A stretch of DNA of 47,043 nucleotides from Hyphococcus sp. (GTDB taxonomy: Bacteria; Pseudomonadota; Alphaproteobacteria; Caulobacterales; Parvularculaceae), in NCBI GenBank assembly GCA_021776375.1, contig JAJFGA010000017.1:1-47043 (forward strand). Reading direction: 5' to 3'. Below are positions 13,628 to 29,173 of this stretch, piece by piece. A program made the translations under genes and the position numbers. Within the stretch, counting starts at the first letter, position 1, and each line of letters opens with the position of its first letter. The notes under the pieces are model-generated. The model had not been told where the DNA came from and made no database searches. It was given only the letters and a program-made list of their open reading frames with translations.

Positions 13628-15974
13628 ATTCGTCTCCTTTTACGTCTATTGTTTCGCCTGAAAATCGCGCTAGCAAAAGCAGCAGCGCCGGCAGAAAGAG
13701 AAAATCAAGGGTCAGCGCGAAACCAATCGTCAATGACGTTAGCATCCCCATCTCCTCATTGATTTTAAACGCCGAAAGCGTCAGCACCAAGAAGCCAGCG
13801 CCGAGGATCACTGTATTAACAACAATCGCCACACCAACGGTTTCAAACGCATAGCGGATAGAGTCTGCTGAGGACAATCCTTTGTCGCGGTGCGCGCGCA
13901 TGTATTTTGCAAGAAAATGCACTGTGTCGTCGATGACAATACCCATAGAGATGGCAGCAATTGCAGCCACGGAAAACCCGACCTCGCCGACCAGGATCGC
14001 CCAGGCGCCAAACGCTGAAAGAATAGGTAGTGCATTTGGCACTAGGCTGATCAGTCCCATACGGAAGCTACGTAGCGCCAATATCATAATGATAGCGATG
14101 GCGGCGACGGCGATAGATGTGCCTAGAATCATACTTTCAACATTGCGCTGGGCGATAAAGGTAAACATCACCTGGGGACCGGTCGCCGATGTCTTAATGT
14201 CGGGCGCATGGTCCTCAAACCATTTCTCAGACTGTTTGAGAAATTCGCGCACCCGTTTTGTGGTTACTCGGCCATCAAGAGTTGCGGTGACGCGTGTTGC
14301 AGATTTATCGATATTGATTCGGTCGTTAAGGTCGAGCCCATAGGGAAGCGACAATTCGTAAAGCAATAGATATTGCGCAGCCAGCTCGCGTTCGTCCGGT
14401 AGTCTGTAATATGCCGGATCATCGGCATTTAAGTTCTTGTTGAGCCGTTTCATGATGTCTGTGATAGAATAGACATGCGTGACATCCGGTTGAACCCTCA
14501 ACCACTCGGTGTAGGCTTCAATTTTTCGTAAAAAATCCGGTTCGTTTACACCACCGGGCTCATTGGCCGGTACCGAATATTCAATTGGGTAAAACCCAAA
14601 ATGTTCAATAACCAGATCACTCTCTGCACGAAATTCGATGCGTGGAGCAAAATATTCTCTCCATTGGTCGCTTAGCTCAATTGATGGAATGAACGAGATC
14701 AAGGCAGCTACGCTAATTCCGATGATAAGAAGAAGGGTGCGAAACCGTCTGATCACGAAATTGGCAAATCCCAGCATCACCTGATTGCGTGTTTGCCCTG
14801 CGGGGCGTGATTTTATGCGGATTGGCGCAAGGCTTAAGAGTGCGGGAAGGAGGGTCATCGATAAAAACCAGGCGGCAAAAATGCCTACGGCTGTAATCGT
14901 TCCCAAATCCTGGAACGGTGGCGAGTCTGAAAACCGGAGTGACAAAAATCCGACCACGGTCGTAATCGATGTCACGCCAACTGGCAGAAAGTTGATGCGC
15001 ATGGCCTCGACGATGGCTGCGTGTTTTTTAAGTCCATCACGCATCGCCGCGCGCATCGAGATCAGGATGTGAATTGAATCTGCGATTGCGAGCGTTAGAA
15101 TAATCACCGGCGCGCTGGGGCTCGGGCCTGCGAGCTTTATGCCGATATAGCCGGCAAAGCCCATAGCGACCGTTGTTGATAGAATGATGATTGCTAGCGT
15201 TGCGGCGGTAGCAGAAATTGACCGAACGGTGATTGCGGTTAAGATCAGTACGACCAGAAACATTAACGGCACCAATGTGGCCAGATCGTTGTTTACAGCC
15301 TCTGCGAATGCATTATTCAGCATCGTGGTGCCGGTGAGATAGACCTCAAGGTTTGGAAAATTCTCCTCGATCATATCTCTTGTTGCACGCGCCACAGCAA
15401 CCGCTTCGGGCACTTCGGTCAATGCTTTTTCAGGATATTGAAGAACCACGTTGACGGCGGTTACTTTTCCGTCGGCGGTGATGAGCTGGTTACGCAGGAG
15501 GGGCTCCGCTAGCGCAATGTCGCGTTTTTGAATGAGCTCGTCTGGCGTTAAATTGCGAGCGTCGACGATCAAGTCCTCAACAATCAAATCATCTTCAACG
15601 GCATAGGTATATTGGAAATTGCTAAGGGAATCGACGCGCAGCGCGTAAGGAATTTGCCAGCCTTCCTCAGTCAGAAGTTCCACTGCAGCCAGCGTATCGT
15701 TTGTAAATGCACCGCTAGTGTCTTTTGTTTTGAGCACAAACACGAATGTATCGCTTTTTGTATAAGTGCTTTGAAAATCTTCAAATGCCTGCAGTTCAGG
15801 ATTTTGTTTTGAAAAGAAAGCGCGGTAATTATTAGAAAATTCAAGCTGTGAGGCGTATGAGCCGATGGCGATAGCGCCGCCCACGCTGATTGCGATAACG
15901 ATCCATCGTAGTTTAATCATCCATTGCGCCAGCCCGCTGGCAAAATTGTCCAGCAGTTTGTTTGATGCAGCCAT
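13596..15974 (-). CDS. MMPL/RND-family exporter
   Basis: The 792-residue inner-membrane protein has the classic duplicated RND layout: a helix at about 20-42, a large periplasmic loop, five to six helices at about 230-390, a second helix near 415, a second loop and a last helix bundle. Motifs include AIADSIHILISM and, in the second half, MGIVIDDTVHFLAKY, the family's conserved acidic membrane positions. Related proteins (HpnN/MmpL type) move lipids or other hydrophobic molecules rather than drugs. With the LolA-like carrier and the barrel protein downstream it forms a complete trans-envelope lipid-type export route, under the TetR regulator encoded first in the operon. Confidence 0.9.
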   Translation of the reverse strand: MAASNKLLDNFASGLAQWMIKLRWIVIAISVGGAIAIGSYASQLEFSNNYRAFFSKQNPELQAFEDFQSTYTKSDTFVFVLKTKDTSGAFTNDTLAAVELLTEEGWQIPYALRVDSLSNFQYTYAVEDDLIVEDLIVDARNLTPDELIQKRDIALAEPLLRNQLITADGKVTAVNVVLQYPEKALTEVPEAVAVARATRDMIEENFPNLEVYLTGTTMLNNAFAEAVNNDLATLVPLMFLVVLILTAITVRSISATAATLAIIILSTTVAMGFAGYIGIKLAGPSPSAPVIILTLAIADSIHILISMRAAMRDGLKKHAAIVEAMRINFLPVGVTSITTVVGFLSLRFSDSPPFQDLGTITAVGIFAAWFLSMTLLPALLSLAPIRIKSRPAGQTRNQVMLGFANFVIRRFRTLLLIIGISVAALISFIPSIELSDQWREYFAPRIEFRAESDLVIEHFGFYPIEYSVPANEPGGVNEPDFLRKIEAYTEWLRVQPDVTHVYSITDIMKRLNKNLNADDPAYYRLPDERELAAQYLLLYELSLPYGLDLNDRINIDKSATRVTATLDGRVTTKRVREFLKQSEKWFEDHAPDIKTSATGPQVMFTFIAQRNVESMILGTSIAVAAIAIIMILALRSFRMGLISLVPNALPILSAFGAWAILVGEVGFSVAAIAAISMGIVIDDTVHFLAKYMRAHRDKGLSSADSIRYAFETVGVAIVVNTVILGAGFLVLTLSAFKINEEMGMLTSLTIGFALTLDFLFLPALLLLLARFSGETIDVKGDEYVQHSFEVRT

Positions 15975-16025
15975 GACTTACTCCTTTAACGACGTCTCAG
16001 CGTTCTCATCAACGCAAGCGGCGTA

Positions 16026-16694
16026 TTAGTTCTGTACCTGTTTGACGGTTGTTGTTTTTGGATTTCGGCGCCTGTGTTCAAGGTTTTGAGCACCGCTTTG
16101 GCGGCTCAAAAGGCGCAGGCATGAATTGAATACAGTCAGTAGTTCTTGCCGGCCAGCACCGTTGCGGGCCATGGCTCCGACGCCAAGCATGTTGGCGATC
16201 AATAATGCAGCGCCTTCCTTCGGCGAAATGGCGGAATTTAAGTCGCCGCATTTTTCCGCCTGTGCCAAAGCCATTTCATCGGCGCTTCGAATTTCTTCAA
16301 GATAGCTAAGCACGCGCTCCGATACGGCTTTGTCATAGCGTCCGACTTCCGCTGCAACATCGCACATCAAGCATCCGGCGCCGCGGTCGGTCATTTCAGT
16401 AATGCAGTATTCAGAGACCTCGCGGATAGCTGCTATTGGGCCGCCTTGGGGATCACTCAAAGCTGTCAGGAACAAATTTTTGCGTTCAATAAAATAGCTT
16501 TCTAGCACGGCCAGAAACAGCTCCAGCTTGCCGCCGAAAGCATTGTAAAGTGCATAACGGTTCATGCCAGTCGCGCAAACCACATCTTCTATAGAAGTTT
16601 CATCATAGCCCTTGCGCCAAAACAATTCTTTGGCGGCGTTAACGGGAGCTATTAATGTTGGTTCGCTCAATAAAATTTCGGCATGGGATGTCAT
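16026..16694 (-). CDS. TetR/AcrR-family transcriptional regulator
   Basis: The 222-residue protein has an N-terminal helix-turn-helix at about residues 18-65 (AKELFWRKGYDETSIEDVV, then GMNRYALYNAFGGKLELF), typical of TetR. The ligand-binding half contains CLMCDVAAEVG and other cysteines, resembling the AcrR/YcdC-like branch. It is the first gene of the RND operon, 51 bases before the exporter, so it very likely represses that operon and itself in response to a hydrophobic ligand. A candidate operator lies 28 bases upstream. The ribosome-binding site before the ATG is weak. Confidence 0.9.
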   Translation of the reverse strand: MTSHAEILLSEPTLIAPVNAAKELFWRKGYDETSIEDVVCATGMNRYALYNAFGGKLELFLAVLESYFIERKNLFLTALSDPQGGPIAAIREVSEYCITEMTDRGAGCLMCDVAAEVGRYDKAVSERVLSYLEEIRSADEMALAQAEKCGDLNSAISPKEGAALLIANMLGVGAMARNGAGRQELLTVFNSCLRLLSRQSGAQNLEHRRRNPKTTTVKQVQN

Positions 16695-16741: not shown

Positions 16742-17050
16742 TGTGCAAGCTCAAAGTTCTGCAAGGTGAAATTATCAGTATAATCAAATAGTTGTGACGT
16801 TTGTGGGATATCAAGGCGTTAGGGTAGGGCGGCTTTGACCAATGGGCAGGCGTGCATGTGGCGGTGTAGCGGACAACCTGCGGTTTAAAGAAGTAGTGCA
16901 TTGTGAGGATAGTTTTGTGGTTGGCGGCGCAAACTTTACGCACGAAGATAGGCGCAACAGATTTCTGTGAGGATGATGTGTGCCGGAAAAAAGAAACCAT
17001 GCAATAAATCAGTCTCGCGATGAATTACATTTTGGGTGGCGCCCTCTTTC
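16742..17050 (+). other. Divergent intergenic region between TetR operon and antiporter
   Basis: I see no gene in these 309 bases. They should hold the antiporter promoter and part of the TetR-operon promoter. A short ATTAT-N4-ATAAT inverted repeat occurs near 16770, and nothing else stands out. Confidence 0.45.
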
Positions 17051-18286
17051 ATGATTACAGAACCTCTTATTATCATTGCGCTTTGTATCGTCCTTTATGG
17101 CGCATTCTCAGCTTGGTTTGGAAAGTCTGTGGTATCGGCGCCAATGGTTTTTGTGCTGGCCGGTTTAGTTACGGGCAGCGCCGGTCTCGGTATTTTTGAA
17201 GTTGATGTCGACAACCAGGTGCTTGAAGGATTTGGCGAATTAACGCTCGGGTTTATTCTCTTCGCTGATGCAGCGTCGACTAATAGCAGAAACCTTATTC
17301 GCGAAAACCGTATTCCCAAGCGCTTGTTGCTGATCTCCCTGCCGCTAACGATTTTATTTGGCGCCGCCATTGCGATTGGGGTGTTCCCGAATCTTCTATG
17401 GCAGGAAGCGGCCCTGATCGCCGCAATTTTAGCGCCGACCGATGCCGCGCTCGGTTATGCGGTTGTGACCAGTAGCTACGTCCCTGAACGCATAAGGCAG
17501 GGCATCTTAGTCGAATCCGGGCTCAATGACGGGCTGGCGTTGCCAGCGGTTCTGCTGTTTGCGGCGCTCGCCTATAGCACAATACCGGATGAGGCCAGGG
17601 GCGCCGGGTATTGGATTGGCTTTACCTTAAAGCAGGTTGCTGTCGGCGCTATTGTTGGCGCCGTCATTGGCGGCGCGCTCGGTAAATTTGTTCATTATGC
17701 AGATGGGAAAAAGTGGATCGCTCATTCGTTCCGCAACTTGACCAGCATTGGTGTTGCAATTCTAACGCTCCTAGGCGCTCATTTGGTTGACGGAAACGGT
17801 TTCATCGCCGCCTTTGCCGGGGGGCTTGCCTTTGGCAGCTTTTGTTCGCGCCGCGCCGGGTCGTTGACGAATTTTGTAGAAGAAGAAGGCCAGCTTTTTA
17901 GCTTGATCATATTTTTTATTTTTGGCGCTGTGTTGATGCCAGGGGCGCTTGGCCACTTCACCGCCTTTTGCGTCCTTTATGCGGTGCTTAGCCTGACTAT
18001 AATTCGCATGGCGCCGGCGGCGCTTTCGCTGCTTGATCTGAAGCTAAAATTTCCATCGGTCTTATTCATCGGCTGGTTTGGGCCACGGGGCTTAGCCTCG
18101 ATACTGTTTTTGATGATTGCCGTTGAGCATGAAGAAATGGGCCGTCTTACAGAGATCGAAGCTGTGGTTTATGTGACCGTCTTTTTGAGTATCATCGTGC
18201 ACGGCGCCACCGCTTCGTCGTTCTCCCGGCGTTATGGTGAAACAAACGCCGCAAAAATCGATGGCGGCGAGTCGGTCACGCCGTAG
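17051..18286 (+). CDS. NhaP-type (CPA1) cation/proton antiporter
   Basis: From the ATG at 17051 the protein has 411 residues and about twelve membrane helices; a GTG at 17036 is an equally open start and neither has a clear ribosome-binding site. The core motifs APTDAALGYAVV (near residue 125) and ESGLNDGLALP (near 155) carry the acidic ion-binding positions of the NhaP branch. It exchanges Na+ or K+ for H+ across the inner membrane. The long C-terminal regulatory domain of some relatives is absent. It is divergent from the TetR operon, with no obvious functional link, and converges with the Rieske locus. Confidence 0.9.
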   Translation: MITEPLIIIALCIVLYGAFSAWFGKSVVSAPMVFVLAGLVTGSAGLGIFEVDVDNQVLEGFGELTLGFILFADAASTNSRNLIRENRIPKRLLLISLPLTILFGAAIAIGVFPNLLWQEAALIAAILAPTDAALGYAVVTSSYVPERIRQGILVESGLNDGLALPAVLLFAALAYSTIPDEARGAGYWIGFTLKQVAVGAIVGAVIGGALGKFVHYADGKKWIAHSFRNLTSIGVAILTLLGAHLVDGNGFIAAFAGGLAFGSFCSRRAGSLTNFVEEEGQLFSLIIFFIFGAVLMPGALGHFTAFCVLYAVLSLTIIRMAPAALSLLDLKLKFPSVLFIGWFGPRGLASILFLMIAVEHEEMGRLTEIEAVVYVTVFLSIIVHGATASSFSRRYGETNAAKIDGGESVTP

Positions 18287-18360: not shown

Positions 18361-19158
18361 TTAAATACGGGCATAGGCGCTGGTATTGGCGCGAAACTGT
18401 AAGAGATCGCCTACCCGAACAATTTCGCCTTCCGCCTCAACCGGGTCCGCGACCAAGGGCAGAATATCCATAGGCATCGGGCCGCCATCGGCTGATGTCA
18501 TCAATAAAACAGACTCAGCTCCATCTTTCGTCCGTACCCAGAAGCTTGGCGGAACACCGCCACGGATGCACAGGCTGGCGCAGGCTTTGTGGGTTTTACC
18601 GCGGCCGGGACGCATCACCCCGAAAAAACATTTCGAATCCATGATCGCGCCCGCAAGCCGGGAGGTCCCTAAAGATTTTACCGGCGGGCTGACAACAGCG
18701 GCAGCCAGTTCCATTTTTGCCGGCATGAGCCAGTCGTCGAGAAATGGCGGAACCTCCAGCATTTGGCGCTGCTTGCGCTGAATAAGGACGCCGCGCGCCG
18801 TGACCTGGCTGCCGCGCTGGTCGTTTAGCTGCAGTGCAGAGGTGCATTTGCCTTGTGCGACGATCAACACCGTGCGAACGCCGCCGGGCGTGGTCTGGTC
18901 GATGATACGTATCATCGGATAGGGGTCAGTGATTAATGTTCCAGTGATCTCATGGGTTGCTCCGGTCAGCCAGGCGCCGGCGCCGGGATCGTCAAGTTCG
19001 TTGGCGATAAGCCAGGCTGCGCCGCCGGCCCCGGCAAGGCCAAGTGGCAGAGCGCCAAGAAGGAAACGGCGGTCGACTGCGGGCGCATCCGCCCAGCCGA
19101 CAAACATCTCGCGTGGGTTGCTGGGCTTGGGATCGATAACGCCTTTGTAGAGACTCAT
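18361..19158 (-). CDS. Membrane-anchored protein with conserved-looking Cys/His motif, Rieske locus
   Basis: The 265-residue protein has a twin-arginine-like stretch at residues 30-34 (DRRFLLG) followed by one hydrophobic segment (about 34-52), so it is probably anchored and periplasmic, perhaps Tat-exported. The C-terminal half contains C177-x2-GVMRPGRGKT-H190-x2-C193-x3-C197-IRGG, which looks like a metal, haem or cluster site. I do not recognise a named family. It is the last gene of a five-gene operon and overlaps the ferric-reductase/Rieske gene by ATGA, so it likely works with that membrane redox protein. An electron carrier or assembly factor are both possible. Confidence 0.75.
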   Translation of the reverse strand: MSLYKGVIDPKPSNPREMFVGWADAPAVDRRFLLGALPLGLAGAGGAAWLIANELDDPGAGAWLTGATHEITGTLITDPYPMIRIIDQTTPGGVRTVLIVAQGKCTSALQLNDQRGSQVTARGVLIQRKQRQMLEVPPFLDDWLMPAKMELAAAVVSPPVKSLGTSRLAGAIMDSKCFFGVMRPGRGKTHKACASLCIRGGVPPSFWVRTKDGAESVLLMTSADGGPMPMDILPLVADPVEAEGEIVRVGDLLQFRANTSAYARI

Positions 19159-20222
19159 GTCACGGCAGCTCCTTGTTTAGCGATAATCGCAGGTTCCGTG
19201 CGCGTGCCTGGAGGATTTGGTTTGGGATTAACAAACACCCGACCGGCCTCAATTTTGACCTTGTAGGTCGCAATTTTTTCGGTAAAGGGCGGCGGCGAGA
19301 CACCATCATCGGGGCGATATTGCCACCCGTGCCACGGGCAAGTGATGCAGCCATCGATAACCCGCCCTTCGCCCAACGGACCGTTTTGATGACGGCAGGC
19401 ATTGGTGACGGCTGAGATTTTGTTATCGTAGCGGAACACCGCAACCCTGTCGCCCTTCGGCAGCGGCGCAATCACCGCACGCATGTTGGGGATGTCATCC
19501 GGCGCGCCGATTTCAACCCAACCTTTAGCTTTCAGAGATTTCATGCCGTTGTCGGCGTGCCATTCACGATACCCGATATAGAGATGAAGCGCTGATATGG
19601 AGATGAATGTGACTGCCGTCAGCGCCGGATAGAGAATCGATTTTTCGGTCATCAAAGCGCCAAGAGTGATATGAAAAACTAACAATATATAAGCCGGGTA
19701 GACCAGCATATGCAGCGCTTTCCAGACCGGGGCGGAAAGATTGTTTAGCCAGAAATCATGGCTAGTCGTGGCCATTACAAAAAGAATGAGGAAGGCGGCA
19801 AAGCCCAGCACTTCAAACGGGAAGCCGGGAATGGAATCATAGAGAGGGTTGCTGGCAAACAAAGAAACCAGCGGATTGAGCGGTCCGCTGCTATGATACC
19901 AGAGCAGCGCCAATCCAAAATGCGCGGAGGCGACGGTAAATGTCATCACGCCGAGATGGCGCCGATTGTAGAGCATTGGTGAAAAGCGCGGCGACAGTCG
20001 CGCTAGCGGGCCAATCGCCAAAATGACCGTGAGCATTGTAAACGTGGCCACGCCAAGGGCGCGGATCGCCAAGACTACCGGATCGGCAGCGTGGCCAGTC
20101 GGTTGGGTTTGAAGCCCGACAACCATGAAGACGCCAATAAACAACACAATCGCAACGACCGTGTAGAGATCATATATGATTTTGTTTTTATTCCATTGTA
20201 TGGCCTTGTATTGATGGCCCAT
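19155..20222 (-). CDS. Ferric-reductase-like membrane cytochrome fused to a C-terminal Rieske domain
   Basis: The 355-residue protein has about six membrane helices (residues 18-215) of the ferric-reductase-like (YedZ/NOX) type. Candidate haem ligands include His101 in the helix after RRHLGVM, and His171 and His184 in KALHMLVYPAYILLVFH. A complete Rieske [2Fe-2S] domain follows at about 232-345 with C276-x-H278 and C295-x2-H298. The protein could pass electrons between a membrane quinone or haem pool and the Rieske centre. It starts on the stop of the 53-residue gene (TGATG, one-base overlap) and overlaps the next gene by four bases. Which side of the membrane the Rieske domain faces is not settled. 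Confidence 0.88.
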   Translation of the reverse strand: MGHQYKAIQWNKNKIIYDLYTVVAIVLFIGVFMVVGLQTQPTGHAADPVVLAIRALGVATFTMLTVILAIGPLARLSPRFSPMLYNRRHLGVMTFTVASAHFGLALLWYHSSGPLNPLVSLFASNPLYDSIPGFPFEVLGFAAFLILFVMATTSHDFWLNNLSAPVWKALHMLVYPAYILLVFHITLGALMTEKSILYPALTAVTFISISALHLYIGYREWHADNGMKSLKAKGWVEIGAPDDIPNMRAVIAPLPKGDRVAVFRYDNKISAVTNACRHQNGPLGEGRVIDGCITCPWHGWQYRPDDGVSPPPFTEKIATYKVKIEAGRVFVNPKPNPPGTRTEPAIIAKQGAAVT

Positions 20223-20383
20223 CAGGGTTGCTCCGTCGTATCTGGGAGGTCACGGATCGCGGCGGGGAGGTCTGAATAAGGCGTTTGAGGGCGTTGGTTC
20301 CAAGACAAGAAGGCGCCAATAATGGCGACGGGTGCTGCAATAAGCCAGAACAGGAAATGCAAGCGTCGGTGAGGACGTTTCAT
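20222..20383 (-). CDS. 53-residue single-helix membrane protein, Rieske locus
   Basis: This short frame starts at the ATG at 20383 inside the ATGA that ends the preceding gene and stops at a TGA sharing one base with the next start. It begins MKRPHRRLHFLFWLIAAPVA, with a positive N-terminus and one membrane helix (about 9-27), followed by a short polar tail. I recognise no family. The perfect overlaps on both sides argue strongly that it is translated, perhaps as a small subunit of the membrane cytochrome. Confidence 0.7.
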   Translation of the reverse strand: MKRPHRRLHFLFWLIAAPVAIIGAFLSWNQRPQTPYSDLPAAIRDLPDTTEQP

Positions 20384-20628
20384 GGTGTGCTCCCGTCTGT
20401 CGGGTTATCATCAGGCTGGTTAATTCTTTTCAAGGAAAGAAATCGCAAGATGATATAGGGCCATAATGCGACACAACCCAGAAACACCATCGGCCTGAAA
20501 AACGGGCTCGCGCCTTTTGCGGCGTGGTCGATGTGTGAGACGCCAAAGCCAAGAAACAAAATTGCGACAACAATTCCCGCGCCAAAATAAACACCGAGAC
20601 AAACAACGATTGTTTCCGCGAGCGCCAT
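20380..20628 (-). CDS. 82-residue two-helix membrane protein, Rieske locus
   Basis: From the ATG at 20628, one base after the stop of the Rieske-glutamate-synthase gene, this encodes MALAETIVVCLGVYFGAGIV and so on. There are two membrane helices (about 5-28 and 46-64), a polar loop containing SHIDHAAKGASPF and a charged tail. The frame could extend upstream to 20667, but the one-base junction favours 20628. I recognise no family. Its place between the soluble flavoenzyme and the cytochrome suggests a membrane docking or accessory subunit. Confidence 0.72.
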   Translation of the reverse strand: MALAETIVVCLGVYFGAGIVVAILFLGFGVSHIDHAAKGASPFFRPMVFLGCVALWPYIILRFLSLKRINQPDDNPTDGSTP

Positions 20629-20629
20629 C

Positions 20630-22264
20630 TTATCGCATACTGCCTGGCGGCACGCCGCCATAAGCAATACCGGTGAGCTCCGCCATTTCTTTTTTGAAGG
20701 TGGTTAGATCATCAATATTGAAGGCAGACAGCTGCCGGTGACCGCAGGCGCGGGCAAGCAATGTCATCAGCTCTGTTGCCGCCTCGAAAAATTGAGCGAG
20801 ATGTCGCGCCGAGGTTTCGATTTTCAAGCGCGCACGCAGGTCATCTTTCTGGGTGGCGATGCCGACCGGGCAATTGTCAGTATGACATGCGCGCATGCCA
20901 AGACAGCCGATTGCCTGCATCGGCGCATTTGACAATGCGATCGCATCCGCGCCAAGCGCCAGGGCCTTTGCGAAATCTGCAGGCTTGCGCAAGCCGCCGG
21001 TTGCAACCAGTGAAACATTGCCGGCGCCGCATGCGTCAAGGTGTTGGCGCGCCCGGGCCAGGGCCGGAATTGTCGGGACCGAAATATTATCGCGAAAAAT
21101 AATTGGCGCCGCTCCGGTGCCGCCGCCGCGCCCATCGAGAATAATGTAATCAGCCCCCGCCTCGAGCGCTGCATCTATATCCTTTTCGATGTGTTGTGCG
21201 GAAAGCTTAAACCCCACCGGGATGCCGCCGGTGCGTTCGCGCACCTCATCGACAAAGTCTTTGAATTGAGAAACGTTGCTCAGCTCCGGGAAGCGCGCTG
21301 GGGAGATTGCGTCCTCGCCCGGCTTGAGGCCGCGGACTTTTGCGATCTCGTCTTTAACCTTGCGACCGGGCAAGTGACCGCCGGTCCCTGTTTTGGCGCC
21401 TTGTCCACATTTGAAATGGAACGCGGCCGCATCGGCGATCTTATCCCAGGAAAATCCGAACCGCGCCGAGGCAAGCTCGTAGAGATAGCGGCTGTTTGCA
21501 TGGCGTTCTTCATCAAGCGATCCGCCTTCACCGGAACAGATGCCGGTGCCGGCGAGCTCCGCGCCCTTGGCGAGTGCAATCTTCGCCTCGCGCGACAGAG
21601 CACCAAAGCTCATATCAGAAACGAAAAGCGGTATTGTGAGTATCAGGGGTTTGGTCGCGCTGGGACCGATTGTGACGGACGTATCCACCGGTTCGTCATC
21701 CAAAAGCGGAACCCGATGAAGCTGCGCCGTGATAAATTGAATTTCGTCCCAGCTTGGCAAGTCGCCTCGCGGCACGCCCATCGCCGCGACCACGCCGTGA
21801 TGGCCGGTTTTAGATAGGCCGTCGCGTGCATACCCTTGGATCAGTCCTACAAACGGTTCTTCAGCGATCGGGTGCGTGTCAGCATAAAGCCCTTGATAGG
21901 CGTTTCTATCGAAAGGTTGCGGGTGGTCTTTTGCCCAGGTCTCGATCTCAGACTGGTCGACATAGACCGTATCCTCTTTCAAGTAGCTGGAAAATTTCTG
22001 TAATGCTTCTGAATTGTTATACTCGCTGACGCCGGAGTCTAACCGGTAGTCCCAATCATGCAGCCCGCAGATCAAATTCTCACCATCGACATGGCCGTCA
22101 GACAGCAAAGCGCCGCGATGAAGGCAGCGGCCGTATAGGATAGAGACGGCGTTGTCATAGCGAACGATGACGAGATCTATCCCGGCAACCAGCGCATAGG
22201 CTGGCTTACGATCTTCAAGGTCCGTCCATTGAGCAACCGCGACCCAGTTTTGCGCCATCTTCAT
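20630..22264 (-). CDS. Rieske domain fused to an FMN glutamate-synthase-like domain
   Basis: The 544-residue protein begins with a Rieske [2Fe-2S] domain (C47-x-H49 and C66-x2-H69) and continues from about residue 150 as the FMN-binding central/C-terminal domain of large glutamate synthases (GltB2 type). Landmarks are SDMSFGALSREAKIALAKGA, SGEGG, GQGAKTGTGGHLPG and YIILDGRGGGTGAAP. Near residues 454-465 the spacing C-x5-C-x4-C (GCLGMRACHTDNCPVG) matches the 3Fe-4S site of GltB. It has no glutamine amidotransferase domain, so ammonia, or another donor or reaction, is likely. The start is ATG 22264 or possibly 22258. First gene of the operon, divergent from the Rieske-ThDP gene. Confidence 0.9.
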   Translation of the reverse strand: MKMAQNWVAVAQWTDLEDRKPAYALVAGIDLVIVRYDNAVSILYGRCLHRGALLSDGHVDGENLICGLHDWDYRLDSGVSEYNNSEALQKFSSYLKEDTVYVDQSEIETWAKDHPQPFDRNAYQGLYADTHPIAEEPFVGLIQGYARDGLSKTGHHGVVAAMGVPRGDLPSWDEIQFITAQLHRVPLLDDEPVDTSVTIGPSATKPLILTIPLFVSDMSFGALSREAKIALAKGAELAGTGICSGEGGSLDEERHANSRYLYELASARFGFSWDKIADAAAFHFKCGQGAKTGTGGHLPGRKVKDEIAKVRGLKPGEDAISPARFPELSNVSQFKDFVDEVRERTGGIPVGFKLSAQHIEKDIDAALEAGADYIILDGRGGGTGAAPIIFRDNISVPTIPALARARQHLDACGAGNVSLVATGGLRKPADFAKALALGADAIALSNAPMQAIGCLGMRACHTDNCPVGIATQKDDLRARLKIETSARHLAQFFEAATELMTLLARACGHRQLSAFNIDDLTTFKKEMAELTGIAYGGVPPGSMR

Positions 22265-22299
22265 CGCCTTTCATCGCCCTGCAGGCGGTCCGGTAACAT

Positions 22300-22315
22300 T
22301 GTGATTTGCACCACA
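22300..22315. promoter_or_regulatory. CRP-like box between the two halves of the Rieske locus
   Basis: TGTGA-TTTGCA-CCACA differs from the CRP consensus TGTGA-N6-TCACA at one position. It lies in the 206-base divergent region, 36 bases from the Rieske-glutamate-synthase start and 155 from the Rieske-ThDP start. It is the least symmetrical of the four such boxes in the window. Confidence 0.4.
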
Positions 22316-22470
22316 CTATTGGCTCTGCTCAAAATTGCAAAACACATTTACAATTTACTCCATGGACCATTTTTCAAATGAGAACTTTATTTTCCAGGAT
22401 ATTCGGCAAGAGGCCAGTTTCGGGTATAGATACGAGTGTCCAACAAGATGCTGCAAAGGAGAGATTGCCG

Positions 22471-24459
22471 ATGTGCGATGCGACGTCGAATAATATTGAG
22501 TGGAAATTTGCAGCCGCTAAAGACGAGGTGGAAGACGGGCGGGTAAGATCGGTAACGGTCGGGCGAAAGACCCTCGCGCTGGTTCATTTCGACGGTCAAT
22601 ATGCGGCGATGGACAATCGCTGCCCGCATCAGGGCGGCCCGCTTGGCGAGGGGTCTATTGAAAAAGGCGCCGACGGAAAATGTTGGTTGCGCTGTCCGTG
22701 GCACGGGTGGGATTTTGACCCGCTCACAGGCAAACCGCCGGGCGGACACGAGGATTCAGGCCAGGAGATGTATCCTGTCGAGCTGCGCGATGACGGTGTC
22801 TATATTGGCGTGCCGCCAGAGCCCGCGCGCAAGCGTACGTCAACGGACGTTGTTGCCGAAACTATGGTCAATTGGGGTGTGAAGCGCGTGTTTGGCATGG
22901 TCGGTCATTCCAATCTTGGTCTCGCTGACGCGTTCCGGCTCCAGGAGGAGGCTGGCAATCTTAATTATGTTGGTATTCGCCATGAGGGGGCAGCGTCTTT
23001 CGCCTGTTCCGGATATGCGAAGCTGACTGGTATGCCGGCAGTGTGTTTTTCGATTGCTGGGCCTGGTGCGACAAACCTGATGACGGGCCTGTGGGATGCG
23101 AAGGTTGATCGTGCGCCGGTCATAGCTTGCGCCGGTCAGGTGCAAGTGCAGGTGTTCTCGCCGTTTGCGTTCCAGGATATTGATCTTCACGGCGCCTTTG
23201 CGCCAGTCGGCAAATTCAACCAGCTTGTTCTGCATGCATCCAATTATGCGGAGACGACCAACCTGGCGATGAAGACTGCATTGATTGAGCGTGACGTATC
23301 GGTGTTGATCTTCCCCGATGATGCACAGACTTTGCCGGCGTCGGATATGAAGGCCGGAAGCCCGCAAGGGCGCATGAGTGACGCGCGCATGACCCCGGCT
23401 GACGATGTGGTCCGGACGGCGAGCAAGGCGATTTACGCCGCCAAGCAGCCGTTGATCATCGTTGGCTATGGCGCGCGCGAGGCGATGGCGGATGTGGTTG
23501 ATTTGGCCGAGCATTTGCGATGTCCCGTGGTGACGACGTTTAAGGCGAAGGGGCAAATCCCCGATAGCCATCCTAACGCCGGCGGCGTTCTTGGTCGCTC
23601 GGGAACGCCGATTGCGTCGTGGTTTATGAATGAGTGCGATCTGATCGTCGCGATCGGCGCCTCTTTTTCACATCACACCGGGATCGAACCGTCAAAGCCT
23701 ATCGTGCAAATTGATTTTGACCGCATGCATCTCGGCAAAAGCCATCCCGTCGACCATCCGGTATGGGGAGAGATTGGCCAAACGCTTCAACGGATGCGCA
23801 GTGGCAGATCGCAGCGCACCGCTGGCGTCGATCAGCTTGGCGAGATTGCGGAACGCTGGAAAATCTGGCGGCGCGAAAAACAACGCCGCCTCGGTGATGA
23901 CCGTGGCAAAGGCGTTAATGCCGCCTCGCTGTTTGCGGCGATGACAAAAGTGGTCCCGCCTGACGCCATCATGCCGGTCGATGTCGGCAATAACACCTAT
24001 TCCTTTGGTCGCTATTTTGAGCCCTGTGGTCAGCGTATATTGATGTCGGGATATTTGGGCTCCATCGGTTTTGGATTTCCAGCGGCCATGGGCGCCTGGG
24101 CTGCGACGCAAGATTTTGACGAATATCGTGGGCGCAAGGTGGTTTCAATTTCTGGTGATGGCGGTTTTGGTCAGTATGCGATGGAATTCACAACGGCTGT
24201 TCACTATAACATGAATATAACGCATGTACTTATGAATAATTGCGAACTTGGTAAAATTTCAAAAGAACAGCGCAGCGGCGAGTGGCCAGTATGGCAGACG
24301 TCGCTTACAAATCCGAACTTCGCCGAGTTTGCGCAAAGCTGTGGCGGACTTGGATTGCGTGTCACGTCGCGCGATGAATTGGAAGGCGCCCTGCGTCAGG
24401 CAATCGCCCATGATGGGCCGGCGCTGGTGGAAGTGCTCACCGACGCTGAGTTGGTGTAG
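22471..24459 (+). CDS. Rieske domain fused to a thiamine-diphosphate enzyme (acetolactate synthase/pyruvate oxidase fold)
   Basis: I chose the ATG at 22471 (662 residues) because AAGGAGA precedes it by about nine bases and the Rieske domain begins at once; the frame is open from 22306. Residues 8-115 form the Rieske domain with C51-x-H53 and C75-x2-H78. From about 122 the three-domain ThDP fold begins: the catalytic Glu172 in IRHEGAASFA, then AGPGATNLMTGLWDA, a central domain, and the cofactor motif GDGG near 562 through NN near 589. Such enzymes cleave or oxidise 2-oxoacids. The Rieske centre suggests electrons leave the ThDP intermediate or that the domain docks a redox partner. The substrate is unknown. 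Confidence 0.9.
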   Translation: MCDATSNNIEWKFAAAKDEVEDGRVRSVTVGRKTLALVHFDGQYAAMDNRCPHQGGPLGEGSIEKGADGKCWLRCPWHGWDFDPLTGKPPGGHEDSGQEMYPVELRDDGVYIGVPPEPARKRTSTDVVAETMVNWGVKRVFGMVGHSNLGLADAFRLQEEAGNLNYVGIRHEGAASFACSGYAKLTGMPAVCFSIAGPGATNLMTGLWDAKVDRAPVIACAGQVQVQVFSPFAFQDIDLHGAFAPVGKFNQLVLHASNYAETTNLAMKTALIERDVSVLIFPDDAQTLPASDMKAGSPQGRMSDARMTPADDVVRTASKAIYAAKQPLIIVGYGAREAMADVVDLAEHLRCPVVTTFKAKGQIPDSHPNAGGVLGRSGTPIASWFMNECDLIVAIGASFSHHTGIEPSKPIVQIDFDRMHLGKSHPVDHPVWGEIGQTLQRMRSGRSQRTAGVDQLGEIAERWKIWRREKQRRLGDDRGKGVNAASLFAAMTKVVPPDAIMPVDVGNNTYSFGRYFEPCGQRILMSGYLGSIGFGFPAAMGAWAATQDFDEYRGRKVVSISGDGGFGQYAMEFTTAVHYNMNITHVLMNNCELGKISKEQRSGEWPVWQTSLTNPNFAEFAQSCGGLGLRVTSRDELEGALRQAIAHDGPALVEVLTDAELV

Positions 24460-24468
24460 GGGCGGAAA

Positions 24469-27400
24469 TTAGAAGCTTACACGCGTTGAGAATGAATATC
24501 GGCGACCAATAAAATCGTAGAAATTTGCGGGCCTATTGTTAGAGAAAGTGAAAATCGCAAGTGGCGGATCTTTGTCGAGCACATTTTCGACGCCAAACTG
24601 GACGTAGATACTGTTATTCAACTCTACCCGAAGGCTAGTATCGAGATAGGAAAAAGCGGGGATTTCTGTCTCCGAAATAAAGGCGTTGGTTGCCAACACT
24701 TTGCCGCGGCGGTTGTACAGAAATGCAAGACTGATAGGCCCCCGGTCAATTCCTGCAGAAGCTAGGCTTTGATGGCGTGGAAAGTTCAGCTGTCCGTCTA
24801 GTCGTTCAGTATCGCCTTGTTGACTGATGGATATTACACGATCGGTATAGGTGTGAAGAAGGTTAACCCAGAACCGGTCAAACAAAGCACTTGATTCCGT
24901 TTTCAGGGCATAGTGGGCTTCAATATCCAGCCCTTGCCAATTCATCGCGTTGACATTTTCAGCAGTCAGTTCGAGAGCTGTAATCTGTCGTGTGGCCGGG
25001 TCACGGCTAATCCGGGGGTTGCCAGTAAGCGGATTAATCCCGCAACTCTCAGCGGAGAAGCCAACACTGGAAAAACAGTCAAATATAGCCCCCCCACCTG
25101 AAAAAAGAATTTGATTTGAAATTTTATATGAAAGCCAGGTTGCCGTAATATCCATCTGCCCCGGTATGCGGGCAGTGAATTCTGTCGGCCTGACCGTAGC
25201 GCTCGCTCCGAAAAATTTCAGCTCTTCCGGCGCTAAATTCGGGTTGCCAAAATTTGTGAGCGTCGCAAGCGAGTTGCTTTGTATGAAGCCGCTGTCTACG
25301 CCAAGGGGTGTGTCACTCATGCAATTTTCAACAACTATTGGTGAGGCGGACCCAAGGTCATTGCCACAAGGATCGAATATCGGAAATCCGGAGCTTAAGG
25401 ATACGGCGAACAGCTCGACGATACTCGGCGCACGATGACCAAGGTGTCGAAACGCTGAGAACTCCATCATATCGTTCGGTCGCCAGGTTACTTTGGCTTC
25501 AAAATTGGTAAAGTTATCATATACGGATGACATAGAGAGTCTTAAATCGGTAGCTATCTCTAACGCACCAATCCAACTGGAAGAGTCTAGTAAGGGAATG
25601 CCTACATTACCGTAGAAGTCATTTTCAAATATTGTGCCTCTGGCGGGGAGAGTATTGCCTGTGCCGAGTAGTATGATATCGGGCCGAGATCGTGCGGTGG
25701 TTTTCATCAATGAATACTTCAAATCAGCGCCGATTTGAAAAGTGATGTCATTTGTAAAAATGCCGGACAGTGCATTACCGGCTGAAATTGAGACTTCATG
25801 TCTTTCAAGGATATATTCCGAATTAATGGGCGGCGTTCGTATGAATTGTTGCGCTTGGCTTGATATCTCGGAGGGTGTAAAGAAATCTATTGGCGCACAG
25901 CCTGGCGACGCCTCGCAAGTGTCTGGTTGAAGTGCAATGGCAAGCTTGCCTCCGTCCACCCTGTTGTGGATTGTCCAATCAGCTTGAGTTCTGCCAAGGC
26001 GATATGAAATAGCATATCGTTCCTTTTCGTCTCTAGAAAGCTCTGCACCAATGACGAGGTCAAGATAGTATCTGTCAATCTTGTCACGCCGCGGGCCAAG
26101 TTCCACATATCGGCGATCAAGAACAACAGATTGCACAGGGCCGCCAAAACTGCCCTGCACTAGGTCAAGCACCGACTGGGGGAGTGTAGGGCTCGTAATC
26201 GGAATTGCGGCTGCGCTTCCGGTAACCAGATTGGGCCCTCGCCCACGTCCGACTGGGGTAGGGGCGAGCTGTAGCTCTGTTGCATTTAGGCCAGCTTCGA
26301 TCTCTGCGTAAAGGCGCAGCGACGGTGATGGGTTTGCCGAGCCGGACATATAACCCATGAATCGGTTAAGTTCTGGAAGAAGTGTGGTTTCGTTAACTGT
26401 CATAAAAAATTGGTCTGGTGCGCCAGTAAACAGCGAAACCGTTCCGTCCGGATTTGGAATAAATGATGCCCCCCCAGGAAAAGATGCAAACGATCCGTCT
26501 TCCAAGACGACACCCTGGATTCGTCCTTTTTCAGTGAGACCGCTTAGGCCGAAACCCTCACCCGTAAACGGTCTATCCGCATCGAGAAGCCTGCCGCTTT
26601 GCGCAAGGTATATGCCGGCAGTGATGTTGGCGGTATTATTTAAGAGGTCCCTTCCGCCGACAAAGTGCAGTGACAATTGTTCCCGATCGCCAAATTCGGA
26701 TATTCCGTAATGCGCTCCAGCTTCTGCGCCATTAAGGTTTGAGCGCAGAACAAAATTTACCGCCCCGACTGCTGCGCCATTGCCATAACGTGCGCTAGCA
26801 GGCGTTGTTTGTATTTCCACACGCTCGAGAAATGGTGTTGCGAAGCGATTGAGGTCAACGCCAAAAGCAGAATCTGGCTCGCTAAATGTTGGCGTGGCGG
26901 GGCGCCCATTGACGAGCACCATACCGCGGTTGGACCCCAGTCCGCGCAGATCTAAGAAGCTGACGCCAGCTATCGCACCAAAGAGAACGGTATTTGTTGG
27001 CGTTACGGAAGCCAGTGTCTGAGGTAAATCAAAGATCGCACGATCAGGTGTTGCGGCATTGAAGTAAGCTAAATACCGCTCATCCAGTTCGAATATTTTT
27101 CCTGAAACGACGGGAGAAGTTTTTACTCCGGATGATGATGTGACAATAATTACGTCATTAAATGGTCTGCTTTCCTCAGGCTGAGAGTTTATCTTAGATT
27201 CATCCGTTTTCGAGGTGACGGTGATAACGAAAGTATTCTTGGAAATTTTTTTTAGCTGCAGGTCCTCTTCGGCAAGGTGGTCTGCAAACGTTCTAGCTAA
27301 CTCGGCTGAACCCTTGATTGGTTTGACTGTTTTTCCTGCCACTACTCTGCTGTCAAATATGAATGACCAGCCGAACTGACGATGAATTTCTCCAAGTATT

Positions 27401-27561
27401 GTTTCTATGGGGAATTTGCCATCAGCATTTTCTTGCTCTGGATAGGTGCGCGCAATGTCAATTTGGGAGATCTGTATACGATTTTCTGCTTGGGCGATGT
27501 TGAGAGAAACTGCTATCGCAGCCGCTGCGGAAGAAAATAAGGTGATACGGAGACTACGCAT
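24469..27561 (-). CDS. TonB-dependent outer-membrane receptor with N-terminal signalling domain
   Basis: The 1030-residue protein has a signal peptide, then an STN (secretin/TonB short N-terminal) domain at about residues 50-110 (FGWSFIFDSRVVAGK, then ADHLAEEDLQLKKI). A plug domain at about 135-270 contains LRGLGSNRGMVLVNGRPA. A 22-strand-type barrel follows, ending in RYSFSTRVSF with the terminal Phe. STN domains contact a FecR-type anti-sigma factor, and the fecR and sigma genes lie directly upstream: this start abuts the fecR stop. The ligand is unknown; iron chelates are the commonest, but carbohydrate and other substrates also occur. It converges with the Rieske-ThDP gene at nine bases' distance. 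Confidence 0.93.
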   Translation of the reverse strand: MRSLRITLFSSAAAAIAVSLNIAQAENRIQISQIDIARTYPEQENADGKFPIETILGEIHRQFGWSFIFDSRVVAGKTVKPIKGSAELARTFADHLAEEDLQLKKISKNTFVITVTSKTDESKINSQPEESRPFNDVIIVTSSSGVKTSPVVSGKIFELDERYLAYFNAATPDRAIFDLPQTLASVTPTNTVLFGAIAGVSFLDLRGLGSNRGMVLVNGRPATPTFSEPDSAFGVDLNRFATPFLERVEIQTTPASARYGNGAAVGAVNFVLRSNLNGAEAGAHYGISEFGDREQLSLHFVGGRDLLNNTANITAGIYLAQSGRLLDADRPFTGEGFGLSGLTEKGRIQGVVLEDGSFASFPGGASFIPNPDGTVSLFTGAPDQFFMTVNETTLLPELNRFMGYMSGSANPSPSLRLYAEIEAGLNATELQLAPTPVGRGRGPNLVTGSAAAIPITSPTLPQSVLDLVQGSFGGPVQSVVLDRRYVELGPRRDKIDRYYLDLVIGAELSRDEKERYAISYRLGRTQADWTIHNRVDGGKLAIALQPDTCEASPGCAPIDFFTPSEISSQAQQFIRTPPINSEYILERHEVSISAGNALSGIFTNDITFQIGADLKYSLMKTTARSRPDIILLGTGNTLPARGTIFENDFYGNVGIPLLDSSSWIGALEIATDLRLSMSSVYDNFTNFEAKVTWRPNDMMEFSAFRHLGHRAPSIVELFAVSLSSGFPIFDPCGNDLGSASPIVVENCMSDTPLGVDSGFIQSNSLATLTNFGNPNLAPEELKFFGASATVRPTEFTARIPGQMDITATWLSYKISNQILFSGGGAIFDCFSSVGFSAESCGINPLTGNPRISRDPATRQITALELTAENVNAMNWQGLDIEAHYALKTESSALFDRFWVNLLHTYTDRVISISQQGDTERLDGQLNFPRHQSLASAGIDRGPISLAFLYNRRGKVLATNAFISETEIPAFSYLDTSLRVELNNSIYVQFGVENVLDKDPPLAIFTFSNNRPANFYDFIGRRYSFSTRVSF

Positions 27562-28545
27562 TCACCCATCCTTTTTGGACAGAATAAACGCGCCATTTTC
27601 AAACTGGTTATTGAGATCGAAAATTAGCGTGATGGCATCAATTGCCGCTGTTTGATCTGTTGCGTCAAATTCGCCTGTTACAGGAAGCATTGAAAGCGAA
27701 GCATCTTGCAGAATTATTTTTTTGTTAAAATAACGGTTAAGCTCTTCAACGACTTCATGAAGAGGGGCTTGTGTGAAGCGCAGCTTTCCAGTTGTCCATG
27801 CAAGTGTATCAATTGGATCAAATGGAGTGATAGCGCCGGCATCGCCATTGCCATTAATATGTATGCTATCACCCCCGCTAAGCGTTAGCGCCTGGTCTGA
27901 TATGGGTTTGACCTGGACCGTTCCGGAAACAACAAATATCTCCGTATCCTTTTTTGATGACAGAACATTAAAAGTTGTCCCGGTTACAGTGATTTCAACT
28001 ACCGGCAATTCAACAATGAATGGCTTGTCTTTGTTGCGTTCGACATTAAATATCGCTTCGCCTTCGTCGAAGCTGATAACTCGTTCGGAACGAGTATACT
28101 CAACCACCAGGGCGGTGTCGGTGTTCATGTTAATGATGCTGCCGTCGTCAAGGTTGACGGAACGGGTTTCGCCAACAGCTGTCGCATAAGTTAGTGCTTC
28201 TGGCCGTGACGAATAATTGAAGAATATTGTTGCCGACAGAGTAAGGAATGCAAATGCAATAGAGGCGGCGAGCGCAGGTACTCTCCATGCGGTTGAATTT
28301 TGCACTTCATCATATAGTTCGTTTTCAAATTTTTCAGATAATATTGTCTGCGCCGAGGCGTCTGTTGCGGACAACGTGCCTTCTAAACGCTCAAATGCGG
28401 CGAAATTGGCTTCGGCTGCCTCCAGCCAACGAGCAAGCGCAGCACGTTCATCGACTGTCATCGCCCCAGACATCAACTTTGCATGCCAAATAGCGGCCTC
28501 TTCCACCGAGCGTGAGGCAAACCCGTATGAAATATTATTGCTCAT
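27562..28545 (-). CDS. FecR-family anti-sigma/sensor protein
   Basis: The 327-residue protein has a cytoplasmic N-terminal domain (about 10-55, EEAAIWHAKLMSG, then LARWLEAAEANFAAFERLEG) that binds the sigma factor. One membrane helix lies near 90-110. A periplasmic FecR domain follows (TAVGETRSVNLDDGS, DEGEAIFNV and TGTTFNVLS), then a C-terminal segment that can dock the receptor's signalling domain. It relays ligand capture by the outer-membrane receptor to the ECF sigma factor. It overlaps the sigma gene by 11 bases and abuts the receptor gene. Confidence 0.93.
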   Translation of the reverse strand: MSNNISYGFASRSVEEAAIWHAKLMSGAMTVDERAALARWLEAAEANFAAFERLEGTLSATDASAQTILSEKFENELYDEVQNSTAWRVPALAASIAFAFLTLSATIFFNYSSRPEALTYATAVGETRSVNLDDGSIINMNTDTALVVEYTRSERVISFDEGEAIFNVERNKDKPFIVELPVVEITVTGTTFNVLSSKKDTEIFVVSGTVQVKPISDQALTLSGGDSIHINGNGDAGAITPFDPIDTLAWTTGKLRFTQAPLHEVVEELNRYFNKKIILQDASLSMLPVTGEFDATDQTAAIDAITLIFDLNNQFENGAFILSKKDG

Positions 28546-29173
28546 CGGTGACCACTTTTTGTTTTTGCCGGCAGCCAGCTTGCTGAGCGACTATTTTGGG
28601 TTTTGGCGGCGTGTGGTCCAAGGATGCGCGCAGAAGTTTCAGTGCGGCGATGATATATTTCTCAACGCTGCTTTCCGACACATTCATATCGCAAGCTATC
28701 TCACGGTAGTTTTTGTTTTCAAACCGGCTCAAAATAAATGCATGACGAATGCGGTCGGGTAGTTTTTGGATGGCGGCGATGCTGGTTTTTAGGTCCTGCC
28801 TTGCAACAGTGATTTGCTCGGGAGAGGGGTCGTTGGACGCCAGGTCTTCAATCTTATTGTGGCCGTCATTTTCATCTGTATGCGATGTAATGTGCTCAAT
28901 AAAGCGCATGCGCCGCCTGGCGCGAAATTCATTTGCGGCGAGGTTCGATGCCGTTTTGAATATCAACGCCTGCGGATTATCAATTTCATTGTGTTCGGCA
29001 TAGCGCCATATGCGTAAGTAGGCGCTTTGGGCAATATCTCGCGCCGCCTCCCGGTCACCGAATTTTTTTGTTAACCACTGTACCAACATGCGGTCGTGCT
29101 TGCGAATAGCGCGATCGACCAGCTTATGGCGGGCAAGATCTGAGAGCTTGCGAGAATTATCGTCCAGCGCCAT
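28535..29173 (-). CDS. FecI-like ECF RNA polymerase sigma factor
   Basis: The 212-residue protein carries sigma region 2 (about 30-100, with VQWLTKKFGDREAARDIAQS, then AYLRIWRYAE) and region 4 (about 135-190, LPDRIRHAFILSRFENKNYR, then EIACDMNVSESSVEKYI), the standard ECF two-domain layout. It should direct transcription of the receptor gene when FecR signals ligand binding. GGAG precedes the ATG. It is the first gene of a sigma-FecR-receptor operon; a structured, gene-free 385-base region lies upstream. Confidence 0.93.
   Translation of the reverse strand: MALDDNSRKLSDLARHKLVDRAIRKHDRMLVQWLTKKFGDREAARDIAQSAYLRIWRYAEHNEIDNPQALIFKTASNLAANEFRARRRMRFIEHITSHTDENDGHNKIEDLASNDPSPEQITVARQDLKTSIAAIQKLPDRIRHAFILSRFENKNYREIACDMNVSESSVEKYIIAALKLLRASLDHTPPKPKIVAQQAGCRQKQKVVTDEQ

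Follow-up and report, generated by a model that had tools for sequence, protein, structure and literature searches.

We analyzed a cluster of redox genes in a 47,043-nucleotide contig of Hyphococcus sp. (JAJFGA010000017.1, assembly GCA_021776375.1; hereafter the window), in which three neighboring genes, here called B, C and D, each encode a Rieske [2Fe-2S] domain fused to a different partner. Gene C (20630–22264, minus strand, 544 aa) combines a Rieske domain (21995–22249, replaced by two CDGSH motifs in some relatives) with an FMN/3Fe-4S glutamate-synthase-type domain (20741–21670). Gene B (19155–20222, minus strand, 355 aa) encodes a ferric-reductase-like b-type cytochrome with a C-terminal Rieske domain (19263–19520), and gene D (22471–24459, plus strand, 662 aa) a Rieske domain (22498–22737) followed by a PoxB-like thiamine diphosphate (ThDP) enzyme. 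The assignments rest on Pfam and alignment for B and C and on Pfam, NCBIfam and a PDB profile for D. Between C and B lies s1 (20380–20628, minus strand, 82 aa, two transmembrane segments), followed by s2 (20222–20383, minus strand, 53 aa, a single transmembrane segment), both characterized by sequence and hydropathy. Gene A (18361–19158, minus strand, 265 aa) is predicted from its alignment, AlphaFold 2 (AF2) model and topology to have one N-terminal transmembrane segment and two OB-like, periplasmic barrels; its alignment contains the candidate metal- or cluster-binding motif C-x12-H-x2-C-x3-C (18568–18630, minus strand). A CPA1-type cation/proton antiporter gene, Nha (17036–18286, plus strand, 416 aa; Pfam, NCBIfam), lies beyond A.

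The minus-strand genes follow each other in the order of transcription C, s1, s2, B, A, with D alone on the plus strand, and their gaps, checked on the sequence, are -4 (A/B), -1 (B/s2), -4 (s2/s1) and +1 (s1/C) bases. C and D diverge from an intergenic or promoter region of 206 bases (22265–22470), provided that D begins at the ATG at 22471; this start, preceded by AAGGAGAG, is the most likely one, and the longest open reading frame (ORF) of D, which begins with TTG at 22306 and encodes 717 aa, is longer than needed. No convincing sigma-70 site was found in the spacer, the single match (22465–22494) straddling the start of D. An earlier note on this DNA had described three Rieske fusions with full CxH/CxxH ligand sets, gaps of -4 to +1 bases and the divergent region, and all of this was borne out, the first by Pfam and ligand conservation and the rest on the sequence; it overlooked the antiporter, which lies outside 18361–24459 and which we count as part of the module, as well as two points taken up below, the separability of D-C-antiporter from B-A and the setting among stress genes.

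Recurrence of the gene set was examined in three samples. In the first, genomes were scanned with the D alignment, and we analyzed the best 80 among 565 stretches confirmed by tblastn (loci L084–L163; 61–82% identity), a set biased to close relatives; the figure of 565 counts any tblastn match at E ≤ 1e-3 and may include proteins sharing the Rieske part alone. The hosts of the 80 are, by title, mostly Alpha- and Gammaproteobacteria, with one titled Thermoleophilia. With bit-score cut-offs of 40 (A), 150 (B), 300 (C), 300 (D), 60 (Nha), 50 (c5), 45 (c17), 25 (s1) and 20 (s2), tblastn found C in 50 of these loci and B and A in 36. In the full-flank set, the 49 loci that extend 7 kb or more to either side of D, C was present in 37, B and A in 27 and all three in 26, and 11 had none of C, B, A and the antiporter. 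Leaving out three loci whose D is at least 79% identical to that of the window changed these counts to 34, 24 and 23 of 46. In the second sample, 99 relatives with the own genome excluded, 19 of 23 D genomes carried C and 22 of 23 carried B, after five plain ThDP matches of 32–35% identity had been dropped from the D count. The third was an even draw of 398 Pseudomonadota (own genome included), in which B was found in 7 genomes, C with either N-terminus in 40 and D in 5; all four D genomes besides our own carry B and C, the three genes spanning approximately 6 kb. The corresponding hypergeometric values are 1.5e-8 for B and 8e-5 for C, and since three of the four genomes come from one family, the events behind them are not independent.

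The earlier note had named rare co-occurrence of the fusions in other genomes as a finding that would refute it; the counts show the opposite and describe a recurring module that is almost certainly real. It is hardly credible that three unrelated Rieske proteins from known pathways became neighbors by chance. Rieske domains are common, and the three found here share 26–30% pairwise identity; yet the co-occurrence and operon order are repeated in Alpha- and Gammaproteobacteria, and D accompanies C in Archaea. In the own genome, which is 84% complete and in 92 contigs, five Rieske matches were found, three of them inside these 6 kb.

The module is separable into two parts, B-A and D-C-antiporter, of which the second is found in haloarchaea too. 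A and B were found in the identical 38 of the 99 relatives, and 16 of these 38 lack D; Rhizobium plasmids, too, have B and A but no D. In a close species (genome G006), B-A occupies the syntenic place (L076), with D, C and the antiporter side by side on another contig (L077). A search of five D-bearing plasmids from archaea or mycobacteria, confined to the plasmids themselves, found B on none of them and C on three. These observations would suit two systems in one locus, D-C-antiporter with a metabolic or stress role and B-A-s1-s2 as an MsrQ-like pair with a new partner, co-regulated and exchanging no electrons. We regard this explanation as rather doubtful: C is present in 26 of the 27 full-flank loci that have D, B and A, roseobacters have a single C-s1-B-A-D operon, and all three fusions carry the same type of Rieske ligands.

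D matches the Pfam models for Rieske (1e-17) and for the N, M and C domains of thiamine pyrophosphate enzymes, and its best PDB profile match is PoxB (3eya/3ey9, 1.2e-82). All four Rieske ligands, the catalytic ThDP Glu, the GDG...N motif and the tested metal-site residues are present in 80 of 80 D loci. An Arg aligned to R264 of the pyruvate oxidase LpPOX, a residue with an FAD-related role, is present in 79, and FAD is probably bound by D. At the position of PoxB Phe465/LpPOX Phe479, the residue between ThDP and FAD, all 80 proteins have Lys and the aromatic residue is not conserved (Lys593 in the alignment, which is numbered from codon 22477, corresponds to residue 595 of the 662-aa protein). 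As judged from sequence, this substitution speaks against plain pyruvate-oxidase chemistry in D. Either the electron path differs and the Rieske center would replace the Phe-gated route from FAD to quinone, or D may not be an oxidase. In high-potential Rieske proteins of the cytochrome bc1 type, disulfide Cys residues occupy the CxHxxC and CxCH positions. This pair is absent from the Rieske domains of D (CPHQGG/CPWH), B (CRHQNG/CPWH) and C (CLHRGA/CGLH) of the window, each of which has the CxH...CxxH ligand set. In one tubeworm symbiont genome (L159:9722-11956), D consists of two CDGSH motifs, Rieske and ThDP domains in one 744-aa chain, and is followed by a CDGSH-type C.

C matches Rieske (4.4e-13) and Glu_synthase (1.8e-93), the overlapping FMN_dh being the sole other Pfam match above cut-off. 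It keeps the FMN/3Fe-4S residues of glutamate synthase, as aligned to 7mfm/2vdc, and the three 3Fe-4S cysteines (454, 460 and 465) are all present in 48 of 50 C loci, the other two having gaps. The Rieske positions H49, C66 and H69 are kept in 45, 46 and 46 of the 50; the exceptions are two start-truncated proteins and three proteins (L150, L153 and L159) that open with two CDGSH motifs and no Rieske domain, are 54–56% identical to C of the window over the whole alignment and all adjoin D. A similar CDGSH-type C lies on a Vibrio fortis plasmid, with no D in the stretch fetched. Both forms also occur in like gene neighborhoods in family f39, from another class of Pseudomonadota (CDGSH in L171, L172, L174 and L198, Rieske in L186 and L187). 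Since two unrelated 2Fe-2S folds interchange in front of the same FMN domain, supply of electrons appears to be their common job, and the exchange points to an electron-transfer role of the Rieske domain in C. The earlier note had proposed that electrons from 2-oxoacid oxidation travel through Rieske modules; the CDGSH exchange fits the part of this claim that makes the Rieske domains carriers, whereas the Lys in D argues against a source of the plain pyruvate-oxidase kind. Passages of PMC5859297 mention the CDGSH-Glu_synthase architecture and state no function for it, and none was found in the literature that we searched. In two of the genomes (G013:C1:216289-217896 and G031:C5:5808-7421), copies of C with one in-frame stop each, which look decaying or mis-assembled, lie on contigs apart from A, B and D.

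B matches Ferric_reduct (PF01794, 2.8e-14) and Rieske (1.7e-14), and hydropathy and the positive-inside rule predict six transmembrane segments and a cytoplasmic Rieske tail. Six His residues (H89, H101, H171 and H184 among them) and the four Rieske ligands are invariant in 36 of 36 proteins; by analogy with the family, the conserved His would bind hemes. In A, residues C177, H190, C193 and C197 are present in 36 of 36 proteins. Scans of A with Pfam and NCBIfam gave no match, to a molybdopterin domain or any other recognized one; the AF2 model has a pLDDT (predicted local distance difference test) of 85, and the predicted topology places the N-terminus inside and the barrels outside. Of 30 B/A gene pairs whose spacing was measured, the window's included, 26 overlap by 4 bases, a sign of translational coupling, and s1 and s2 were matched in 33 and 7 of the 80 D loci, respectively, both at low score. 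With the Rieske domain of B inside and the barrels of A outside, electrons would leave the cytoplasm for the periplasm, the direction that they take in MsrPQ. Elsewhere in the family, in loci of other genera (L047, L048, L049 and L052), B-A lies within a conserved block that by eye resembles exopolysaccharide/glycosyltransferase genes, and these stretches have no C or D.

A different role for the [2Fe-2S] domains, as sensors of redox state or oxygen by which the enzymes fused to them are turned on or off, is in our judgment very unlikely. In its favor, 10 of the 80 D loci have, near D, genes for an extracytoplasmic function (ECF) sigma factor and a zf-HC2-like protein that scores below the Pfam cut-off. 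Elsewhere, both ThDP enzymes and the FMN domain of glutamate synthases do their work with no Rieske domain attached. The FMN/3Fe-4S domain of C, however, requires an electron source, and the predicted topology of B places its Rieske domain where NOX-type enzymes have their FAD/NADPH module, which passages of PMC3591440 describe as cytoplasmic in NOX and ferric reductases; the same source mentions a ferric-reductase model with Rieske.

The antiporter has Na_H_Exchanger (5.9e-33) as its sole Pfam match above cut-off, and no RCK/TrkA domain was found in the Pfam scan. Its NCBIfam matches all remain below cut-off (NF003716: 121 bits versus 355), the nearest models being of NhaP2-type K+/H+ antiporters and CPA1. 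An antiporter gene is present in 24 of the 80 D loci and in 18 of the 49 full-flank ones, and C is present in all 18 of the latter. In 19 of 81 loci (the 80 and L077), it is co-directional with C and lies in front of it at a distance of no more than 200 bp, and in 5 of these the two genes overlap by 1 or 4 bases; ORF starts were taken as the longest possible, so some of these spacings are approximate. In Roseibium/Labrenzia the order is Nha-C-D-s1-B-A, and a Woeseiaceae locus has Nha-C alongside D and a DUF5996-type gene. On a plasmid of the haloarchaeon Halorarius halobius, genes for D, a sodium:proton antiporter and C all fall inside 8 kb; between the latter two lie one potassium-channel-like and two hypothetical genes.

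This linkage suggests an explanation by salt or pH homeostasis, in which D would supply C with electrons for the synthesis of glutamate or some related amino acid, the antiporter would swap K+/Na+ for protons in osmotic or alkaline adaptation, and B-A would vent the surplus. The presence of C in every full-flank antiporter locus, the haloarchaeal plasmid and the glutamate-synthase residues retained in C are in its favor, as are the many hosts among the best 80 that belong to marine genera. We nevertheless think it unlikely, because the own genome has an ordinary full-length GltB, C has no glutaminase domain, and quinone- or electrophile-type genes surround C in 6 of 10 loci fetched from family f39.

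Those 6 loci came to light among D-less C genomes of the even draw, of which there are 35 (40 minus our own and the four with D); loci were fetched from 22. Cytochrome b561, YceI and pirin genes lie near C in 6 of the 22, all in f39. The same 6 loci contain a two-domain glutathione S-transferase (GST) and LysR in 5, a NemA-like FMN reductase in 3, a nitroreductase in 3, a Fer4_19-CDGSH protein in 3 and MsrA in 1; a second MsrA match was obtained in a different locus. These assignments come from Pfam and NCBIfam. The two-domain GST may be read as a glutathionyl-hydroquinone reductase. In L159, D, C, GST, pirin and cytochrome b561 are found in a single locus, with the GST, b561 and pirin genes upstream, and the haloarchaeal neighbors include pirin, a short-chain dehydrogenase/reductase, DsrE, a 'putative quinol monooxygenase' and mercury(II) reductase. 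Against the PADLOC anti-phage models, A, B, C, D and Nha gave no match at E ≤ 0.001.

Other genes accompany the module. Directly behind D, the window encodes a TonB-dependent receptor, FecR and an ECF sigma factor (24469–29173, minus strand; Pfam), an iron- or substrate-uptake type cassette. Beyond the antiporter (13596–16694, minus strand), a 792-aa ORF resembles by eye an RND/MMPL-type exporter and a 222-aa ORF is TetR-like; their synteny is retained in the nearest relatives. A family of approximately 285 aa with invariant His, Trp and Asp occurs in about 16 of the 80 D loci, counting matches to either of two queries (e.g. L095:9106-9975 and L077:7809-8684); the member in L095 matches DUF5996, and that in L077 has no Pfam match. 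A membrane family without a Pfam match and with the motif RFQ..SA.TG.GFTT (L077:7086-7787 and L095:11998-12642) lies near D in 6 of 80 loci and resembles by eye the membrane part of RCK-type transporters. A DUF1622 membrane protein is encoded 3' of D in several Henriciella-type loci (e.g. L134:10296-10736).

From a gene set that recurs, redox ligands that are conserved in it, a [2Fe-2S] domain that can be exchanged, the linkage to the antiporter and the stress-gene neighbors in one family and one symbiont, we propose a conserved Rieske-wired redox/electrophile-stress module that would be part PoxB-like, part MsrPQ-like and part Kef-like. D, which probably binds FAD beside ThDP, would oxidize a small 2-oxo acid or dicarbonyl and pass the electrons out via its own Rieske center. 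C would receive them, presumably in direct contact with D, via its own [2Fe-2S] domain and reduce an electrophile or imine-like substrate, and the CPA1 antiporter, coupled to and perhaps controlled by C, would tune cytoplasmic pH and K+ or Na+ in the manner of KefC-KefF. Where B and A are present, the cytoplasmic Rieske domain of B would send the same electrons through two putative b hemes over the inner membrane to A, whose periplasmic Cys/His domain would reduce an oxidized periplasmic target, as MsrQ does for MsrP. The Kef precedent and the MsrPQ-like electron direction lead us to favor this reading. As a whole chain we hold it tentatively, as possible and somewhat short of an even chance; for the idea that the parts share electrons, the odds are roughly even.

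Several observations weigh against the proposed module. With 5 carriers among the 398 evenly drawn genomes, D is rare, and 12 of 49 full-flank D loci have no C nearby. The plasmids that carry D without B, two of which also lack C, suggest that D may work without them. The Lys at the Phe465 position does not favor oxidation of the PoxB kind, and structure comparison of A found no known-fold match beyond generic OB barrels. In the window, the antiporter is on the opposite strand and converges on A; in Kef systems the gene order is the reverse of that seen here, with the redox gene first, and the antiporter-C linkage could alternatively reflect osmoadaptation. The stress-gene context is also uneven: 16 of the 22 D-less C loci are without the b561-YceI-pirin set, GST lies near D in 2 of 80 loci and pirin in 1, neither was found in any of 40 loci of relatives, and none of these genes is among the ten window proteins scanned by Pfam, which do not amount to an annotation of the whole window.

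Our literature searches turned up no paper describing this gene set, in keeping with the earlier note's suggestion of an undescribed system. A near full-length D is present in no fewer than 80 species-level genome records, and the annotated plasmid records examined call D a 'thiamine pyrophosphate-binding protein' and C a 'glutamate synthase-related protein', and nothing more. Many marine bacteria thus have a conserved redox operon, its core shared with haloarchaea, that has so far gone unread. If the proposed wiring is true, it would provide a ThDP enzyme that releases electrons through a Rieske center, an unambiguous example of one [2Fe-2S] fold taking the place of another before the same flavin domain, and a testable tie between oxidant or electrophile stress, cation/proton exchange and transmembrane electron export. 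A bolder version, which we consider improbable, though not to the point of neglect, is a new cytoplasm-to-periplasm circuit. In it, D would discharge single electrons via Rieske into exchangeable [2Fe-2S]-tagged partners, an FMN enzyme gating an antiporter and a two-heme membrane wire with A, a metalloprotein of a new type, at its periplasmic end. Bacteria would thereby link the oxidation of carbon to ion homeostasis and envelope repair, sharing the D-C-antiporter core with haloarchaea.

Each part of the module resembles a known system and departs from it. C shares with GltB the FMN/3Fe-4S domain with its three Cys, but it matches the GltB model (1490 positions) at 865–1161 only, lacks the glutaminase, central and C-terminal GltB domains and has Rieske or CDGSH as its electron module; since a separate full-length GltB is present elsewhere in the own genome, C is not required as an ordinary glutamate synthase. 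B shares with MsrQ the ferric-reductase transmembrane domain with conserved His, and A is membrane-anchored, probably periplasmic and encoded by a gene overlapping that of B by 4 bases. B differs from MsrQ by its Rieske tail and misses the MsrQ equivalog cut-off (53.9 versus 130), and in the place of a molybdopterin MsrP it has A, in which no such domain was recognized (MsrP was looked for in this position and not in the rest of the genome). As described in passages of PMC10224563, the FMN quinone reductase gene of Kef systems overlaps the antiporter gene, and in several of our loci a cation/proton antiporter gene likewise overlaps that of an FMN redox enzyme; electrophile-type neighbor genes, in family f39, are a further likeness to KefC-KefF. 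The antiporter here is CPA1 and not CPA2, an RCK domain was not found in it, and the redox partner is of the glutamate-synthase type. D, finally, shares with PoxB and pyruvate oxidases the catalytic Glu, the GDG...N motif and the POX-type Arg, but it has an N-terminal Rieske domain and Lys at Phe465, its match stops at 529 of 572 so that the PoxB C-terminal tail is absent, and its NCBIfam scores lie below the PoxB and pyruvate-oxidase equivalog cut-offs (PRK08611, 375.4 versus 742; PRK09124 (PoxB), 289.2 versus 792). In the circuit outlined above, D would differ from both pyruvate:ferredoxin oxidoreductase and PoxB in discharging its electrons through a built-in Rieske center.

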